Source: Egibacteraceae bacterium
Lineage (GTDB): Bacteria; Actinomycetota; Nitriliruptoria; Euzebyales; Egibacteraceae
NCBI GenBank assembly: GCA_030446775.1
Contig: JAUJMQ010000001.1
Coordinates: forward strand, 1-64,000
Direction of reading: 5' to 3'
Length of the DNA: 64,000 nucleotides
Shown piece by piece: positions 1 through 45,881 of this stretch. The translations under genes and the position numbers were made by a program. Every line of letters begins with the position of its first letter. Position 1 is the stretch's first letter. The notes under the pieces were generated by a model. The model saw only the letters and a program-made list of their open reading frames with translations, was not told where the DNA came from and searched no databases.

Positions 1-1273
1 TTGCCTGCGGGGCCGGTGGGATGGCGGTCGCGGTCGAGCAGCGCCGCGACACGGCCCGAGAGGTCCGCCGCCGTGGGGCACGGCGCAGGTGGTTCCAGAT
101 CCGGGGCGGTGTCGGGCACGTCGTCGGGCGTGGGACAGGCGGCCAGCGCCCCGCGCAGCGCCATGTCAAGAGGGCGCCCGGGATGGGTGGCGGCGACCGA
201 CTGGCCCAACGCACCAGCGCGGCGCAGACGGCCGGCGCGCTGCGGCGACCCACCCCGGGAAGCGGGCGGGTCAGCCGGCCGACCGCGTCAGCCAGGTCGC
301 GGTCGTCCAGGGCGGCGGAGACGGCGGACGCCCAGGCGACCGAGGACACCTCACGCTCCCGCTGCTGCAGGTGCTGCTCCAAGGCGGTGGCGGCGTCGCA
401 CTCACGCGCTCGCGCCTTGGAGCGCACCCCCCGCGCCTCGGCGACCTCGTCGGATAGATCCCAACGGCCAGAGATGGCACGGACGAGCCAGCCGGCCGGG
501 TTGTGCAGCCGCTTGGCGGCGACCGCCTCCAGGGCGTCACGGACCAACCCGGCCGGGTGCTCCCCGACCAGCCCGGCGGCCACCGACGGCGCCACGCCGA
601 CGGCCGTCAGCCCGGTGACCAGCTGCGGCCCGTCGGCCTCGTCGCGCCCGCCGGCGCGCAGCTGTTGTGTCTGTGGAGCAACAGCTTCTTGTTCTTCTGT
701 TTGCTGTACCAGATCACCGTGTCCGGTGAACTGGTACACGGACCGTGTACCAGAAACTGGTACACGGCCATCCACCGGCGGGTGCCCGTCGTCTGGCGTG
801 ACTCCTCCACCGCCTGTCGGCCGGAGTCGTGGGCCCGGCGCGGTGGTGAACCGCTCGATGCACGCGGACGGGTCGATGACGTAGCGGACCTGCTCGTAAC
901 GACCAGAGTCTGCCTCGCGCGACTCCTCGTGGAACACGAAGCCGTAGTCCCGCAGCGCTGCGAGATGCTTCTGGACCGTGGTCTTGCTCAAGCCGAGGTG
1001 CGCCGCCACTTGGCGGACGTTGGTCTCGGCCACCAGCCGGCCGCGGTCATCCAGCCGCGCATCCAGCGCGATGTCCTCCAAGACCCCCCAGGCGAGCAGC
1101 CCGACGGCTCGCTTCACCGCGCGGCTGCTCGGGAAGACCTTCGCGAACGGCTCCGCACGGCCGACGATCCGCCCGTCGGACAGGACGCGGCCGACCTCCT
1201 GGCCGAACGCCATAACGTCCCGGGCCTGCGTGGGCTCATCCCCGCGCGAGGGCCGCGTCGCATCGGCCGACAT
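1..1273 (-). CDS. Winged-helix DNA-binding protein of a putative integrated element (C-terminus off-window)
   Basis: An uninterrupted minus-strand frame runs from the ATG at 1273 to the window edge, at least 424 residues. Around residues 85-125 there is a clear helix-turn-helix (VRQVAAHLGLSKTTVQKHL) followed by a wing-like segment ending RYEQVRYVID. A lower-GC linker follows, then a long Ala/Arg-rich helical region. The layout resembles DNA-binding or replication-type proteins of actinobacterial plasmids and integrative elements; this is inference, and no catalytic motif is visible. The linker DNA (705-767) holds an inverted-repeat cluster that could be a binding site for the protein itself. 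It lies next to the 3' end of a tRNA-Thr gene, a common integration site. The gene reads as coding because the frame stays open and the HTH is convincing; exact function unknown. Confidence 0.6.
   Translation of the reverse strand, partial: MSADATRPSRGDEPTQARDVMAFGQEVGRVLSDGRIVGRAEPFAKVFPSSRAVKRAVGLLAWGVLEDIALDARLDDRGRLVAETNVRQVAAHLGLSKTTVQKHLAALRDYGFVFHEESREADSGRYEQVRYVIDPSACIERFTTAPGPRLRPTGGGGVTPDDGHPPVDGRVPVSGTRSVYQFTGHGDLVQQTEEQEAVAPQTQQLRAGGRDEADGPQLVTGLTAVGVAPSVAAGLVGEHPAGLVRDALEAVAAKRLHNPAGWLVRAISGRWDLSDEVAEARGVRSKARARECDAATALEQHLQQREREVSSVAWASAVSAALDDRDLADAVGRLTRPLPGVGRRSAPAVCAALVRWASRSPPPIPGALLTWRCAGRWPPVPRPTTCPTPPRIWNHLRRAPRRRTSRAVSRRCSTATAIPPAPQA
705..767. repeat. Inverted-repeat cluster (three copies of an 11-mer in alternating orientation)
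   Basis: CTGGTACACGG occurs at 731-741 and 757-767, and its exact reverse complement CCGTGTACCAG at 743-753, giving two overlapping perfect palindromes with 1-nt and 3-nt centres. A partial copy TGTACCAG is at 705-712, and TCACCG/CGGTGA form another palindrome at 714-729. The cluster lies inside the reading frame of the HTH protein, between its DNA-binding domain and C-terminal region. Candidate iteron, partition site or operator. Confidence 0.75.
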
Positions 1274-1480: not shown

Positions 1481-1556
1481 TGGAGCCGGGGAGGGGAATC
1501 GAACCCCTGACCTGCTCATTACGAGTGAGCCGCTCTGCCGACTGAGCTACCCCGGC
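1481..1556 (-). tRNA. tRNA-Thr (anticodon CGT)
   Basis: The minus strand folds as a full cloverleaf. The acceptor stem pairs GCCGGGG with CCCCGGC, the D-arm begins TAGCTCAGTCGG, the anticodon stem GCTCA/TGAGC encloses loop CTCGTAA with anticodon CGT (reads ACG, Thr), and the T-arm carries GGTTCGATTCC. The 3' CCA is encoded (1481-1483). The 3' end faces the apparently foreign segment at 1-1480, as expected for integrases that target tRNA 3' ends. Confidence 0.95.
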
Positions 1557-5639: not shown

Positions 5640-7259
5640 ATGCCTGCCGCAGACCGCGCGTTGCTCGACGACGTCGCCACGCGTCGCACGTTCGCCATCA
5701 TCAGCCACCCCGACGCCGGCAAGACGACGCTGACGGAGAAGTTCCTGCTGTACTCGGGCGCGGTGCAGGAGGCGGGGGCGGTGAAGTCCCGCCGGCAGAG
5801 CCGGGCGGCGACGTCGGACTGGATGGAGCTGGAGCGCCAGCGCGGGATCTCCATCAGCTCCACGGTGCTGCACTTCACCTGGCGAGGGTGGAACTTCAAC
5901 CTGCTCGACACGCCCGGCCACGCCGACTTCTCCGAGGACACCTACCGGACGCTGTGCGCGGCCGACGCGGCCATCATGGTGCTGGACATGGCCAAGGGCC
6001 TGGAGCCCCAGACCCTCAAGCTGTTCCGCGTCTGCGCCGACCGCGGCCTGCCGATCGTGACCTTCGTCAACAAGTGCGACCGTCCGGGCCTGGAGCCACT
6101 CGGGCTCCTTGACGAGATCAGCGACCGGATCGGCCTGCAGCCGGTTGCGCTGTCGTGGCCTGTCGCCGACGGCCCGTCGTTCGCGGGGATCGTGGACCGT
6201 CGCGCCGGTGAGCTCGTGCGCTTCGACCGGACGTCCCACGGCGCCCGGATGGGCGACGAGGAGCGGGTCGGGCTGGACAAGGCGCGCGCCGCCGGCGGCG
6301 ACGAGTACGGCTGCCCGCCCGACCGCTGGGACGCCGCGATGGAGGAGCTCGAGCTCCTCGACGCCGAGGACGCCGCGCTTGACCGTGACGCCTTCCTCGC
6401 CGGCAAGCAGACGCCCGTGTACTTCGGCTCGGCGCTCGCGAACTTCGGCGTGCGGCTGCTGCTGGAGGGCTTCGCCGAGCTCGCGCCGGCCCCCGGCCCG
6501 CAGGTCACCGCCGAGCCGGGCGAGCCGCGCCCCGTCGACGCGCCGTTCAGCGCCCGGGTGTTCAAGATCCAGGCGAACATGGACCCGCGCCACCGTGACC
6601 GGGTGGCGTTCCTGCGGGTGTGCAGCGGCCGGTTCGAGCGCGGCATGACCGCCGTCCACGCGCGCACCGGCCGCCCGTTCGCGCTGAAGTACGCCCACCA
6701 GCTGTTCGCCCGCGACCGTGAGACCGTCGACGCGGCGGTCCCCGGCGACATCGTCGGGGTCGTCAACGCGACGGGCCTGCTCGTGGGCGACACGCTCCAC
6801 GTCGGCCCCCGCCTGGTGTTCCCGCCGATCCCGACGTTCGCCCCCGAGCAGTTCGCCACGGTCCGCAACCGCGACACCTCGCGCTACAAGCAGTTCCGCA
6901 GCGGCCTTGAGCGCCTGGACGAGGAGGGCGTGGTCCACGTCCTGCGGCGCCCCGACCACGGCGACACCGAGCCGATCTTCGCCGGTGTCGGCCGGCTGCA
7001 GTTCGAGGTCGCCGCGTATCGGATGTCCACCGAGTTCGGCGCGGAGATCACGCTGGGCCCGGCGCCATGGCGCTTCGCGCGCTCGGTCGACGCCGCGGAC
7101 GCAGCCGCCCTGCGCGGCCAGCGCGGGACGTTGCTGTGCCAGGACGCGGCGGGGGGCTGGCTGGTGCTGTTCGCCTCCGACTACGCCCTGCAGTGGGCCC
7201 GGGAGGACCACCCGGGCGTGACCTTCACCCCGCTCGGCCACACCGCCGAGGCAGCCTGA
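5640..7259 (+). CDS. prfC: Peptide chain release factor 3
   Basis: 539 residues, the usual RF3 length. RF3 is a translational GTPase that recycles RF1/RF2 from the ribosome after termination. The GTPase motifs are intact: G1 ISHPDAGKTTLTEK, G2 region QRGISISST, G3 DTPGHADF, G4 NKCD. The RF3-specific domain II/III follows, including VFKIQANMDPRHRDRVAF and GVGRLQFEV. ATG 5640 is 6 nt behind a -10 box, indicating a leaderless message. The gene is followed at 28 nt by the end of the convergent ECF transporter operon. Confidence 0.95.
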   Translation: MPAADRALLDDVATRRTFAIISHPDAGKTTLTEKFLLYSGAVQEAGAVKSRRQSRAATSDWMELERQRGISISSTVLHFTWRGWNFNLLDTPGHADFSEDTYRTLCAADAAIMVLDMAKGLEPQTLKLFRVCADRGLPIVTFVNKCDRPGLEPLGLLDEISDRIGLQPVALSWPVADGPSFAGIVDRRAGELVRFDRTSHGARMGDEERVGLDKARAAGGDEYGCPPDRWDAAMEELELLDAEDAALDRDAFLAGKQTPVYFGSALANFGVRLLLEGFAELAPAPGPQVTAEPGEPRPVDAPFSARVFKIQANMDPRHRDRVAFLRVCSGRFERGMTAVHARTGRPFALKYAHQLFARDRETVDAAVPGDIVGVVNATGLLVGDTLHVGPRLVFPPIPTFAPEQFATVRNRDTSRYKQFRSGLERLDEEGVVHVLRRPDHGDTEPIFAGVGRLQFEVAAYRMSTEFGAEITLGPAPWRFARSVDAADAAALRGQRGTLLCQDAAGGWLVLFASDYALQWAREDHPGVTFTPLGHTAEAA

Positions 7260-7287
7260 CCACGACGCCCGCTCGCCGGCGCGGCGG

Positions 7288-8037
7288 TCAGCGCCTGGCG
7301 GCGAGCGCCTCCAGTGAGAACCCGGCCGGCAGCTCCAGGGCGTGGGCGGCGAGCAGCGCCTCGTCGGCGAGGACGTCGAGGATCGGCCCGTCGGCGACGA
7401 CGCGGCCGCCGTCGATGACCACCGCCCGGTCGCACAGGCCGCAGGCGTAGGGCAGGTCGTGGGTCACCATGAGCAGGGTCTGGTCGAGCTTGGCGAGGAT
7501 CTCGCCGAACTCCCGGCGCGAGCGGGGGTCGAGGTTGCTCGACGGCTCATCCAAGACGAGGACGTCGGGGTCCATCGACAGCACCGCGGCCGCCGCGACG
7601 CGCTTGCGCTGGCCGAACGACAGGTGGTGGGGCGGCCGGTCGGCGTACGCCCGCATCCCCACCATCTCCAGCGCGGCCGTCACGCGCCGCTCGATCTCGG
7701 CGCGGTCCAGCCCGAGGTTCGCCGGCCCGAAACCGACGTCCTGGGCGACCGACGGCATGAACAGCATGTCGTCGGGGTCCTGGAACACCACCCCGACGCG
7801 GCGGCGGACCTCCGCGAGCGTCCGCCCGTCCACCGCCACCCCGCCGACCTCGACCGCCCCCGACTGTGGCCGCAGGATGCCGTTGAGGTGCAGGCACAGC
7901 GTCGACTTGCCGGCACCGTTGGGACCCAGCACGGCGACCCGCTCGCCCGCCGCCACCTCCAGCGACAGCCCGTCGAGGGCGACGTGGCCGTCGGGGTAGG
8001 CGAAACGGACGTCGCGCAGCGACACCGCCGAGGTCAC
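7288..8037 (-). CDS. cbiO: ECF transporter ATPase, cobalt/nickel type (CbiO/NikO)
   Basis: 249 residues from GTG 8037, which overlaps the stop of the upstream permease (GTGA), so translation is coupled. ABC ATPase with Walker A GPNGAGKST, Q-loop VVFQDPDDMLF, signature LSFGQRKR, Walker B VLVLDEPSSNLD and switch His in MVTHDL. Energises uptake of a transition metal with the CbiQ permease and CbiM substrate-capture protein. Last gene of a three-gene operon controlled by the Nur-like box at 9819. Confidence 0.93.
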   Translation of the reverse strand: MTSAVSLRDVRFAYPDGHVALDGLSLEVAAGERVAVLGPNGAGKSTLCLHLNGILRPQSGAVEVGGVAVDGRTLAEVRRRVGVVFQDPDDMLFMPSVAQDVGFGPANLGLDRAEIERRVTAALEMVGMRAYADRPPHHLSFGQRKRVAAAAVLSMDPDVLVLDEPSSNLDPRSRREFGEILAKLDQTLLMVTHDLPYACGLCDRAVVIDGGRVVADGPILDVLADEALLAAHALELPAGFSLEALAARR

Positions 8038-8771
8038 AGCAGCACCCGTGCGCCCATGACCGCCGCCGCCAGCGACGCGGCGAACGCGACGTCCACGCGG
8101 CGCAGGACGAGCTCGTCGCCGAGCGTCGCGGGCATCGCGCCGGTGAAGCCGCGGCTGGTCATCGCCAGGTAGACGCGCTCGCCGCGCTCGAGCGCACGCA
8201 CGAACAGCGTCGCCATCATCGCCCCGACCGACGCCGCCTGCCACAGCCACCGCGAGTCGTCGCCGCGAGCTGTGCGGGCGGTGCGCATCCGGGCCGCCTC
8301 GTCGCCCAGGACGTGCAGGTAGCGCCACATGAACGACACGATGAGTACGAGGACGCGGGGGGCGCGCAGCGCCTCGAAGCCGCGCAGCAAGCGGGGGAAG
8401 GGCGTCGTCGAGCTCAGCACGACCATCGCGAGCACGCTGGTGGTGAGCTTGAGGGCGAGCGTCGCCCCGCGCGCGGCGCCGTCGTCGGCCAGGAACGGCA
8501 GCGCGAGCGCGGCGAGCAGGAACGGCACCTCCACGACCATGCGTCGCAGCGTGTAGCGCAGCGGCAGCCGCGCCGCGGCGGCGAGCACGACCGCCACCGC
8601 GAGGTAGGCGACCAGCGCCCCCCACGCGCCGACCGCGGTCGTCGCCGCGACCACCACGAGCCCGATCAGGCCCACGATCTTCACCCGCGGGTCGAGCCGG
8701 TGGACCGGCGAGGCTCCCGCGGCGACCGCCTCGACGCCGCCCGCCGCGCCCGCGCCGTGCCCGCCGCTCAC
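8034..8771 (-). CDS. cbiQ: ECF transporter transmembrane T component (CbiQ/NikQ)
   Basis: 245 residues from GTG 8771, again overlapping the upstream stop by GTGA. Several hydrophobic helices (VGLIGLVVVAATTAVGAW and others) and the family's conserved start SPVHRLDPRVK. The cytoplasmic coupling region near RTARTARGDD and AMTSRGF fits the CbiQ Ala-Arg coupling motifs that contact the ATPase. Couples ATP hydrolysis by CbiO to metal movement through CbiM. Confidence 0.9.
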   Translation of the reverse strand: MSGGHGAGAAGGVEAVAAGASPVHRLDPRVKIVGLIGLVVVAATTAVGAWGALVAYLAVAVVLAAAARLPLRYTLRRMVVEVPFLLAALALPFLADDGAARGATLALKLTTSVLAMVVLSSTTPFPRLLRGFEALRAPRVLVLIVSFMWRYLHVLGDEAARMRTARTARGDDSRWLWQAASVGAMMATLFVRALERGERVYLAMTSRGFTGAMPATLGDELVLRRVDVAFAASLAAAVMGARVLL

Positions 8772-9772
8772 GTCGGGCTGGACTCCGGCCGGCCGGTGGG
8801 CACGCCGCCTCCGGAGCGGACCGCAAGGACCGCCCCGGCGCCGACGGCGAAGCAGGCGGCGACCCCGACGAGCCCCGACAGCCATCCGACGGCGTAGTCG
8901 GGCAGCGGTGCGGCGCCGAAGACGGCGTCGCCGGACGCCTCGGCCAGGCACGCGTCCTGGTCGGAGGCGTCGGCGCAGGCGGTGGCCAGGACCGACGCCT
9001 CGAGCCCGTCGGGCTGGGAGGAGGCGAGGTAGGACAGCCCCATGCCGGCGACGAGCGCCGCCAGCAGCCCGGCGACGACGATGCCGCGCACGGGCGTCCG
9101 GCGCCGCCGGCGCTCGCGGGCGCCGAGCCGGTCGGCGTTGGCGACGAGGTCGGGTCGGGTCGACAGCACGGCCGCGACGACGGCCGTGGTGATGAACGCC
9201 TCCCCGATGCCGATGACCGCGTGCACGCCGAGCATCGCCGGGAAGAACGCGCCGGCGAGCGCGGCGCCGGCGAAGCCGCCGTAGGTGATGTAGGCGGTGC
9301 ACACGGCGCTGGCGACGAACACCGTGGCCCACGACGTCAGCGCCGTCGCCACCAGAAAGCCGCTGCGCCCCCGCGGGAGCAGGCCGCTGAGGACCCGGAA
9401 CAGGTAGTAGCCGCCGACGGCGGCGACCAGGCCCATGAGCGAGACGTTGGCGCCGAGGGCGGTGATCCCACCGTCGGCGAAGCCGATGGCCTGCACCCCC
9501 AGGACGGTGGCCAGCACGAGCAGCCCCATCCCGGGGCCGAGCAGGATCGCGGCGAGCGCGCCGCCGACGAGGTGCCCGCTGGCGCCGGGAACGACCGGGA
9601 AGTTGATCATCTGCACCGCGAACACGAACGCCGCGGTGACGCCGACGAGGGGGATCTGCCGGTCGTCCAGGCGTGACTTGGCCGCCCGCAGCGCGTAGGC
9701 GACACCGCCGGCCGACACGGCGCCGGTGGCCACCGCCGTCGGTGCGCTGAGGAAGCCGTCGGGGATGTGCAT
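8768..9772 (-). CDS. cbiM: ECF metal-capture protein, CbiM fused to a CbiN/PDGLE domain
   Basis: 334 residues from ATG 9772. The start is fixed by the invariant N-terminus MHIPDGFLS, whose Met-His amino end co-ordinates the metal in this family. Residues 1-210 form the CbiM/NikM membrane domain. After an Arg-rich linker comes a second unit with a helix, the PDGLE motif (SQPDGLEASVL) and a last helix, i.e. a CbiN/NikN-like part fused in one chain. Fused MN forms occur in both cobalt and nickel systems; the Nur-like operator upstream favours nickel. Confidence 0.92.
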   Translation of the reverse strand: MHIPDGFLSAPTAVATGAVSAGGVAYALRAAKSRLDDRQIPLVGVTAAFVFAVQMINFPVVPGASGHLVGGALAAILLGPGMGLLVLATVLGVQAIGFADGGITALGANVSLMGLVAAVGGYYLFRVLSGLLPRGRSGFLVATALTSWATVFVASAVCTAYITYGGFAGAALAGAFFPAMLGVHAVIGIGEAFITTAVVAAVLSTRPDLVANADRLGARERRRRRTPVRGIVVAGLLAALVAGMGLSYLASSQPDGLEASVLATACADASDQDACLAEASGDAVFGAAPLPDYAVGWLSGLVGVAACFAVGAGAVLAVRSGGGVPTGRPESSPT

Positions 9773-26884: not shown

Positions 26885-27294
26885 CGGTCCTCCACGAGCA
26901 GTGTCGCGCGGCCGGGCAGCTCGACGGTGACACCGAAGGCCGCGAAGGCACGGGTGCCCAGCCGCACCACCGCGGTGACGGGCTCGCCCGGGACCCGGAC
27001 ACCGGTCGGCGGATGGAGCACCACGGCCACCGGCCGGCGGCCGGCGGCCGCCCGCGCCGCGCTCCTGACGGCCTCGTCGTCGTCGACCGCGGCCACCCGC
27101 GCCGCCTGCAGCGCCACCGCCTGGGCGGCGACGAGGTCGGCTCCGAGCAGCGCGGCGTGCAGCAGCAGCGTCAGCAGCGTGACGACGACCGGGATGGCCA
27201 GCGCGAGCTCGAGCGTCTGCGAGCCGCGCTGGCCGCGGAGGCGGGAGAGGGCGGCGCGGCGCGCGCCGCCCTCTCCCTGTCGGCTCAGAACCAA
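26881..27294 (-). CDS. tadE: TadE-family minor pilin
   Basis: About 137 residues. Class III-type leader and helix: RGSQTLELALAIPVVVTLLT with the invariant Glu after the cleavage site, then AAQAVALQAARVAAV and a beta-rich C-terminus. TadE proteins are minor pilins of the tad/Flp apparatus. No ATG or GTG is available; TTG 27294, inside the end of the pilin gene, is the best start and implies translational coupling. Confidence 0.75.
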   Translation of the reverse strand: MVLSRQGEGGARRAALSRLRGQRGSQTLELALAIPVVVTLLTLLLHAALLGADLVAAQAVALQAARVAAVDDDEAVRSAARAAAGRRPVAVVLHPPTGVRVPGEPVTAVVRLGTRAFAAFGVTVELPGRATLLVEDR

Positions 27295-33045: not shown

Positions 33046-33870
33046 CTAGAACAGCGCCGACGCCAGCCGCGGACGCCAGGTGCGCACGGTCTCGCTGTCC
33101 TCGCCGAGCACGGCGAACAGCTCCAGCACGACGGCGCGTGCCTCGGCTCGGGTCGCGGGGTCGCGGACGGCGTCGAGCAGGACGGGCAGGGCCCGCTCCG
33201 CGTCCTGAGCGGCGGCGAGAGCGCGCCCGTAGGCCAGCCGGGCCTGTGCGTCGCCCGCGGCCGCCGCGGCGCGCAGCGCGGCGAGATCCCCCCCGCCGGA
33301 GCGCAGCCGCAGCTCGGCGGCCAGCCGGCGCGCCTCGGCGGAGCCGGGCAGCCGCTGCAGCAGCATGAGGGCCTGGGCCTCGTCGCCTGCGTCGACGAGC
33401 AGGCGCGCGAGCTCGAGGGCGGCGACAGGGTGGTCGGGGCGGGCCTCCAGCGCGTCGCGCAGCAGCGCCTCCCGCTGGCCAGCGGGCGCGTCGGCGGCAG
33501 CTCGAGCGAGACGGTCCGCCGGTGACGGCGCGAGCGCGGCGAAGAAGCGCTCGACCACCGGCTCTGGCTGGAGCCCGGTGAACTCGGCCACGACCGCGCC
33601 GTCCCGGAAGGCCTTGACGGCCGGGATCCCCTGGATGCGGTAGCGCTGGGACAGCCCGGGCGCCGCGTCGACGTCGACCTGCTCGACGTCGACGTCGTCG
33701 GCGTGCCGGGCGGCGACGCGCTCCAGCAGCGGCGACAGCTGGCGGCACGGGCCGCACCAGGCGGCCCAGAAGTCCACCACGACGGGGCGCACGGCGCTGG
33801 CCTGCAGCACGGCGCTCGAAAAGTCGGCCTCGGAGACGTCGGCGACGCGGACGGCGGGCATGTCGGTCAT
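33046..33870 (-). CDS. Thioredoxin-TPR protein (YbbN/CnoX-like)
   Basis: 274 residues from ATG 33870. Residues about 10-110 are a thioredoxin domain with active site WAAWCGPCRQ, cis-Pro region GIPAVKAF. The rest is helical TPR-like repeats (REALLRDALEARPDHPVAAL; LALARLLVDAGDEAQAL-type). YbbN/CnoX proteins hold oxidised clients for the chaperones; here the CGPC is intact, so it may also be redox-active. 29 nt upstream of bpa, likely co-transcribed. Confidence 0.88.
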   Translation of the reverse strand: MTDMPAVRVADVSEADFSSAVLQASAVRPVVVDFWAAWCGPCRQLSPLLERVAARHADDVDVEQVDVDAAPGLSQRYRIQGIPAVKAFRDGAVVAEFTGLQPEPVVERFFAALAPSPADRLARAAADAPAGQREALLRDALEARPDHPVAALELARLLVDAGDEAQALMLLQRLPGSAEARRLAAELRLRSGGGDLAALRAAAAAGDAQARLAYGRALAAAQDAERALPVLLDAVRDPATRAEARAVVLELFAVLGEDSETVRTWRPRLASALF

Positions 33871-40497: not shown

Positions 40498-41121
40498 GTG
40501 ACCGACGAACCACCGGTCGGCGTGGGTCCCTGGCGGGGACCCTGGCCCGACGACGAGCGCTACGACCGGGCCCTGCTGCGCGACGGCGACACGCGCAACG
40601 TCGTGGACCGCTACCGCTACTGGACGGTCGCGGCGATCGTCGCCGACCTCGACGACCGGCGGCACCCGTTCCACGTCGCCGTCGAGAACTGGCAGCACGA
40701 CTTCAACATCGGAGCGGTCGTGCGCAACGCCAATGCGTTCGGCGCGCGAGCCGTCCACATCGTCGGACGACGCAGGTGGAACCGGCGCGGCGCGATGGTC
40801 ACCGACCGCTACGTCGACGTGCGTCACCATGCCGACGTCGACGCCTTGGCGGCCTGGGCCGAGGGGGACGGCATTCGCCTGCTCGGCGTCGACAACCTCC
40901 CGGGCGCGGTGACGATCGACGCGGCGGAGATCCCACGGGAGTGTGTCCTGCTGCTGGGGCAGGAGGGTCCGGGCCTGTCGGACCCAGCGCGTGCGACGGT
41001 CGAGGTCGTGCTGTCGATCCCGCAGTTCGGGTCCACGCGCAGCATCAACGCGGGGGCGGCGTCGGGGATCGCGATGTACGAGTGGGTCCGCCGGCACGCC
41101 GGGAACAGCGGCGGTCGCTGA
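40498..41121 (+). CDS. SpoU (TrmH) family RNA 2'-O-methyltransferase
   Basis: 207 residues. SPOUT knot motifs: 1 NIGAVVRNANAFGA, 2 LLLGQEGPGLS, 3 IPQFGSTRSINAGAASGIAMYEW, with the conserved Arg and Asn. Methylates a ribose in tRNA or rRNA; TrmH-type substrate plausible but not provable. Start GTG 40498. Confidence 0.9.
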   Translation: MTDEPPVGVGPWRGPWPDDERYDRALLRDGDTRNVVDRYRYWTVAAIVADLDDRRHPFHVAVENWQHDFNIGAVVRNANAFGARAVHIVGRRRWNRRGAMVTDRYVDVRHHADVDALAAWAEGDGIRLLGVDNLPGAVTIDAAEIPRECVLLLGQEGPGLSDPARATVEVVLSIPQFGSTRSINAGAASGIAMYEWVRRHAGNSGGR

Positions 41122-45817: not shown

Positions 45818-45841
45818 ACGCACGCACACCGGTCCACTGCG

Positions 45842-45870
45842 CTGAGGGCGGCCTGGAGGGCCGCCCTCAG
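45842..45870 (+). terminator. Hairpin terminator after the cupredoxin gene
   Basis: 12-bp stem CTGAGGGCGGCC/GGCCGCCCTCAG with loop TGGAG; no U-tract follows. Confidence 0.6.
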
Positions 45871-45881
45871 CCGTTCCCCGC

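Follow-up and report, generated by a model that had tools for sequence, protein, structure and literature searches.

A probable replication origin of conserved dyad sites inside an initiator-like gene of actinobacterial conjugative-type elements

Introduction

An origin of replication embedded in the gene of its own initiator is a known design. In pSK41 Rep, the N-terminal winged helix binds boxes near the center of the rep gene; the middle part of the protein, encoded by the origin, is a dispensable linker, and the C-terminal domain is separate (PMC5703833). The origin ori-lambda, composed of iterons and an AT-rich tract, is found in the middle of the O gene (PMC7466680), and for mycobacterial RepA phages the origin has been suggested to lie in repA or immediately ahead of it (PMC7157519). 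A survey of actinobacterial integrative and conjugative elements (ICEs) includes 17 elements of the type IV secretion system (T4SS) type with a MobF relaxase (PMC3218068). Here we analyze a cluster of palindromes in an initiator-like gene carried by a 64,000-nucleotide stretch of DNA from an Egibacteraceae bacterium (Actinomycetota; Nitriliruptoria; assembly GCA_030446775.1, contig JAUJMQ010000001.1). This whole stretch is referred to as the window; it starts at base 1 of its contig, and coordinates are window positions. Comparison with related sequences suggests that the cluster is probably a theta-type replication origin, embedded in the linker-coding DNA of its own initiator gene.

Results

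Dyad sites in the window and in related genes

The first-pass annotation of the window had described three 11-mers in alternating orientation, forming two overlapping perfect palindromes, with a partial copy and an adjoining dyad, all inside a coding region. Each was found as placed (Table 1), and a minus-strand open reading frame (ORF, 1273..2) spans the cluster. Exact copies of the 11-mer CTGGTACACGG lie at 731-741 (+), 743-753 (-), and 757-767 (+), and these three are its only matches with zero or one mismatch in the 64 kb; at up to two mismatches there are 23 matches vs. 19.5 expected. The palindrome at 731-753 arises where the right half of dyad 1 meets the left half of the dyad after it. 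Five dyad centers with arms of at least 11 and loops of at most 5 were counted in the window, two of them here and overlapping, compared to an average of 0.7 and a maximum of 3 in 60 simulated 64-kb first-order Markov sequences. When the linker was recoded synonymously, one arm of at least 11 appeared in 325 of 20,000 trials, so the palindrome is partly carried by the protein sequence. Against chance and synonymous recoding, the signal in the window alone is moderate, and conservation across relatives is a stronger test of the palindromes than window statistics. Elsewhere in the window, three further perfect dyads (27243-27277, 33666-33694, and 45841-45871), whose arms measure 12 to 16, are possibly terminators.

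Relatives of the window protein were found in 17 of 66 genomes of the class (E <= 0.001) and in 14 of 396 genomes in a search of the phylum (E <= 1e-10). Fourteen of the related genes, including the window's, together hold 32 dyads, all 25 bp long and all in DNA that encodes the linker. They fit the pattern CCGTGTnCnn-N-nnGnACACGG, and their half-sites are spaced 14 bp apart. Dyads were called from the outer CCGTGT of both halves (two mismatches or fewer) at a fixed 14-base offset, which makes the spacing a condition of this count; a survey without fixed spacing shows the same offset. Outside the 14 are L053, L056, and L057, which have no dyads, and L009 (the same place as L052), L054, and L055, dropped earlier. 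Core identity of the two arms was 101/128, whereas 5000 shuffles gave a mean of 84.6 and a maximum of 97. The counterpart of the last window dyad (717-741) is kept in relatives, and the partial half-site that closes the cluster is retained in several of them as (C)TGGGACA. Drift of the repeats in homologous genes, named by the annotation as one possible refuter, was not observed: the dyads stand at the same place in all 14 genes.

The codon frame of the sites indicates what has been kept. First dyads are in frame 0, or in frame 2 for the window and L052; terminal dyads are in frame 1. Peptides encoded by the same DNA in the three frames (PCPKNWDT, RVPVSGTR, and VSQSTGH) are mutually unrelated. 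One DNA pattern in three codon frames implies that the DNA, not the peptide, is conserved.

A search for the site in related genomes, proposed in the annotation as a check, matched 7 of the 66 genomes using the site alone, and 6 of the 7 matches are in the homologous gene. One of these six is a remnant in G060 that the protein search had overlooked. The seventh match (G047) is by an antiporter gene and was taken as chance; a reversed-pattern control gave one match (G058), and the two together show the chance level.

Covariation of recognition helix and half-site core

In 13 of 13 genes, the majority core of the half-sites corresponds to the three residues that begin the recognition helix. The fourteenth, L091, has dyads but no helix, and hence is not part of this test. 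Helix start SKT goes with core ACC (window and L052), SKN with CCC (L011, L046, L047, L048, and L049), and NKD with CCG (L042, L044, L045, and L051), while core CGC is paired with ANN (L050) and SRN (L043). Within one gene the core is mostly uniform. Agreement was found for 77 of 78 gene pairs, which none of 50,000 permutations reached, and for 44 of 45 pairs (11 of 50,000 permutations) among the 10 genes left without the near-duplicates L052, L044, and L046, although these permutation figures overstate the case because related sequences are not independent. A tree was computed after masking the three helix residues; few of its forks are well supported, and the place of the misframed L011 row was ignored. 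In it, the SRN and ANN rows group with SKN rows L046-L049 (a group of six, modest support), which is consistent with specificity having changed within these six.

Cores differ between co-resident copies in G000 (ACC, CCC), G007 (ACC, CCG), and G059 (CCC, CGC), while in G046 two of three copies have CCG in common. Every copy thus has a different core in three of the four genomes with at least two scorable copies, a difference that is not significant by a rough estimate. The second initiator copy in the window's genome (G000; positions 6995-9510 of locus L011, core CCC) has a tRNA 3′-end piece upstream and a frameshifted N-terminal part.

An AT-rich patch next to the last dyad

The lower-GC patch reported in the annotation is real, with 42% GC over 681-716 vs. 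73% in its surroundings. It is made of AT-ending codons: GC content at third codon positions (GC3) is 0.22 in the window patch vs. 0.92 in the rest. The same trend holds in all 11 genes checked (GC3 of 0.22-0.56 in the patch adjoining the last dyad vs. 0.86-0.95 elsewhere), and the lowest GC per 36 bases near the last dyad is 0.33-0.50 in 15 rows (L009 and L052 being the same place). The window patch also contains an 8-bp inverted repeat with arms at 660-667 and 679-686; it is of the CTGTTG...CAACAG type, which is also visible in the patch of several relatives.

The initiator-like protein

Pfam matches of the window protein are mostly helix-turn-helix families, with a weak match to the N-terminal domain of replication protein C (E 0.01) under its cut-off. 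Its PHROG matches include O-like and replication-initiation families. Among nine aligned family members, eight match phrog_270, “replication initiation protein” (best 2.3e-6), and seven match phrog_391, “replication initiation O-like” (best 1.5e-5). In the AlphaFold2 model, block means of the predicted local distance difference test (pLDDT) for the winged helix range from 54 to 88. In a fold comparison, the modeled winged helix matched structures 4pql, 4pt7, 4pta, and 5kbj (Z 8.6-9.3, root-mean-square deviation 3.1-4.5 Å, 92-100 residues), which are listed as initiator and Rep-DNA structures and represent pSK41-type Rep; DnaD (2v79) scores Z 9.3. Searching solved structures by sequence yielded no significant match.

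The C-terminal domain aligns to the end of an RPA-family initiator over about 57 residues (hhalign probability 96.5); that protein's own Pfam RPA score (E 3.8e-24) is in its N-terminal part. In the window copy, homology to a relative's protein stops at 203, and the ORF at 3..209 (-) looks by eye like the C-termini of other members. The reading frame thus appears to be broken at about 200-210, where the gene encodes the C-terminal part, and the window copy may be broken or misassembled. Two C-terminal domain relatives without a winged helix were also seen in G042 and G030 (positions 1501-2127 of L070 and 1408-2214 of L079).

Mobile-element context

From their sequence surroundings, the initiator-like genes appear to belong to integrated elements of conjugative type and to be located close to tRNA ends. 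At 13 of 17 loci, a pattern search placed a tRNA 3′-end motif upstream of the gene at a distance of 345 bp or less. At the remaining loci, the window has an intact tRNA-Thr, L042 has a motif recognized by eye, and L046 has one at 450 bp; no such motif was found in the 520 bp upstream at L047. In an Rfam search of 16 loci, only the window tRNA was above the cut-off, the partial pieces of relatives were unrecognized, and L033 gave a sub-threshold match.

The hallmarks of T4SS-type ICEs (integrase, attachment (att) repeats, and conjugation genes) occur together on the G046 copy. Here the 3′ end of an intact tRNA-Arg, with an integrase gene next to it, recurs at a distance of 29 kb as the tRNA piece (51 bp, 96% repeat). 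The complete 29-kb element between the direct repeats encodes the integrase, a coupling protein, and a VirB4-like ATPase, with no TrwC match inside. A MobF TrwC relaxase is encoded just downstream of the initiator gene in L046, L047, L048, and L050; the gene order in L048 and L050 is initiator, two small ORFs, TrwC relaxase, and DUF6459 protein.

For the window copy, one element end is on the contig, with tRNA-Thr adjacent; a search of the window genome, whose assembly is about 60% complete, did not reveal a second att copy. The window tRNA and the gene share one orientation, which is not the case for the pieces close to most relatives, so its role as att site is likely but unproven. ARAGORN also called a tRNA-Ala(AGC) of odd length at 40949-41046, perhaps a false positive.

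Table 1. Coordinates of the initiator-like gene, its palindromic sites, and adjoining features in the window.
Feature	Position	Strand	Remarks
Dyad 1	743..767	none	25 bp, perfect 11-bp arms, loop 3; minus strand reads CCGTGTACCAG-N3-CTGGTACACGG
Second perfect dyad, overlapping dyad 1	731..753	none	arm 11, loop 1
Last dyad	717..741	none	same register; imperfect right half, CCGTGTACCAG-N3-ACCGGACACGG
TCACCG-N4-CGGTGA dyad	714..729	none	inside terminal element
Partial half-site TGTACCAG	705..712	none	closes site cluster
Candidate DNA unwinding element (AT-rich patch with AT-ending codons)	659..716	-	GC 0.42 over 681-716
Initiator-like gene	2..1273	-	ORF; runs off contig at window 1
Winged-helix DNA-binding domain (N-terminal)	845..1150	-	AlphaFold2 model, residues 32-133
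SKT codons, start of recognition helix	980..988	-	residues covarying with half-site core
Linker, predicted disordered	644..844	-	residues 134-200, pLDDT below 50; dyads inside
C-terminal helical domain, conserved part	302..625	-	pLDDT about 80-95; RPA-family C-terminal homology
tRNA-Thr(CGT), probable integration site adjoining element	1481..1556	-	ARAGORN, Rfam

Discussion

A proposed origin and the evidence against it

By analogy with pSK41 Rep and lambda O, we infer how such an origin might work. The initiator, probably a dimer or higher oligomer, would bind the 25-bp dyads through its winged helix and, once bound, would strain the adjacent AT-rich patch until it melts. The C-terminal domain would recruit host replication proteins, such as a helicase or primase, and theta-type replication would start on the excised circular form of the tRNA-integrated conjugative element. 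What the comparisons themselves show is the gene architecture, the conserved sites, the AT-rich patch, the covariation of site and helix, and the mobile-element setting. The annotation had called the array typical of iterons, partition sites, or recombinase or operator sites; an iteron-like origin fits best, and nothing was found that favors a partition or recombinase site. Its suggestion that the protein targets its own gene is supported by the conserved dyads and by their covariation with the helix.

Besides the non-independence of the sequences behind the covariation, several results weigh against an origin and initiator. The PHROG matches are weak and rest on a winged helix that also matches transcription regulators. 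Winged helices of TFIIE and RNA polymerase III score equal to or higher than the initiators (Z up to 10.9), so the initiator fold matches are support, not proof. Structure comparison of the C-terminal domain model yielded no match above Z 3.8. Frameshifts or truncations affect several family copies, the one in the window probably among them. Finally, some half-sites are off-pattern: one of four in the window (CCG), two of four in L052 (CCC, CCG), three of six in L043 (two CAC, one CCC), one of four in L044 (CCC), and one of four in L049 (ACC).

Alternative explanations

The alternative that survives best, though we consider it unlikely, is that the dyads are an intragenic operator, with the winged-helix protein a regulator that represses itself via its own coding region. 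Its best Pfam and NCBIfam matches in the N-terminal domain are indeed regulator winged helices, but the sites lie about 500 bp into the gene with no clustering near its start, an operator does not need adjacent AT-rich codons, and the C-terminal domain is common to an RPA initiator. It is more doubtful still that the dyads are a partition (centromere) site for a TubR- or ParB-like adaptor. Dense repeats are a form that partition sites can take, and TubR structures are among the Foldseek matches (E about 0.02); however, no partition ATPase or filament gene was recognized among the conserved neighbors scanned, and a partition site leaves the AT-rich patch and the C-terminal domain unexplained.

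We give very little credence to the dyads being part of an origin of transfer for the neighboring relaxase. The four loci with TrwC just downstream would suit this explanation, but the core of the sites tracks the helix of the gene in which they lie, and loci such as L042, L044, and L049 have dyads although a search of their surroundings found no TrwC. Equally improbable is a by-product of peptide selection or chance, which the arms surviving synonymous recoding would favor, but which has against it the same DNA in three reading frames with unrelated peptides and the covarying arms, and which covariation across relatives already contradicts.

Comparison with known initiators

The proposed origin resembles those of RepA_N initiators in that its putative binding sites lie in the stretch of the gene that encodes the linker. 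The winged-helix fold of pSK41 Rep aligns with our model, although unrelated winged helices score as well or better. Unlike RepA_N, the sites are 25-bp dyads in GC-rich DNA, the C-terminal domain is kin to an RPA initiator and gave no structural match, and the family was found on tRNA-integrated elements. The window protein had no relative in the viral, plasmid, and phage collections searched, nor did L048 in the plasmid and phage collections or the family alignment A1 among viral contigs. Lambda O shares repeated sites followed by an AT-rich tract inside the gene, as well as the weak O-like PHROG matches, but differs in that the family has no match in the phage or viral collections. The RPA initiators (PF10134) have the C-terminal segment in common, whereas their N-terminal half differs. 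Neither RepA_N (PF06970) nor Phage_rep_O (PF04492) is among the matches listed for the window protein (25 of 26 families, E up to 1) or among 8 families for L048 (E up to 0.01); the RPA domain is likewise absent among the matches listed for the window protein and in L048.

Within the literature searched, the family is described nowhere, and its dyad sites, element context, and helix/site covariation also appear to be new. It seems to us an evenly balanced proposition that a family of initiators on conjugative elements of one actinobacterial class carries the origin inside its own gene, and that its specificity diversifies by changes in a few helix residues and the half-sites together. If true, this would be a natural, readable protein-DNA code, possibly driven by compatibility needs of co-resident elements. 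With origin and initiator in one DNA stretch and the two halves varying together, the family would offer a compact natural data set on the evolution of winged-helix specificity and replicon compatibility. It also leads to the prediction that T4SS-type conjugative elements of the class replicate autonomously via their own theta initiator, which the actinobacterial ICE survey did not require for this type (PMC3218068).

The elements resemble actinobacterial T4SS-type ICEs in their TrwC, VirD4-like, and VirB4-like proteins; compared to those surveyed, they bear an initiator-like gene near one end. The G046 element additionally encodes an ORF that by eye resembles a very-short-patch-repair-type endonuclease (positions 5485-5862 of L099), possibly defense cargo.
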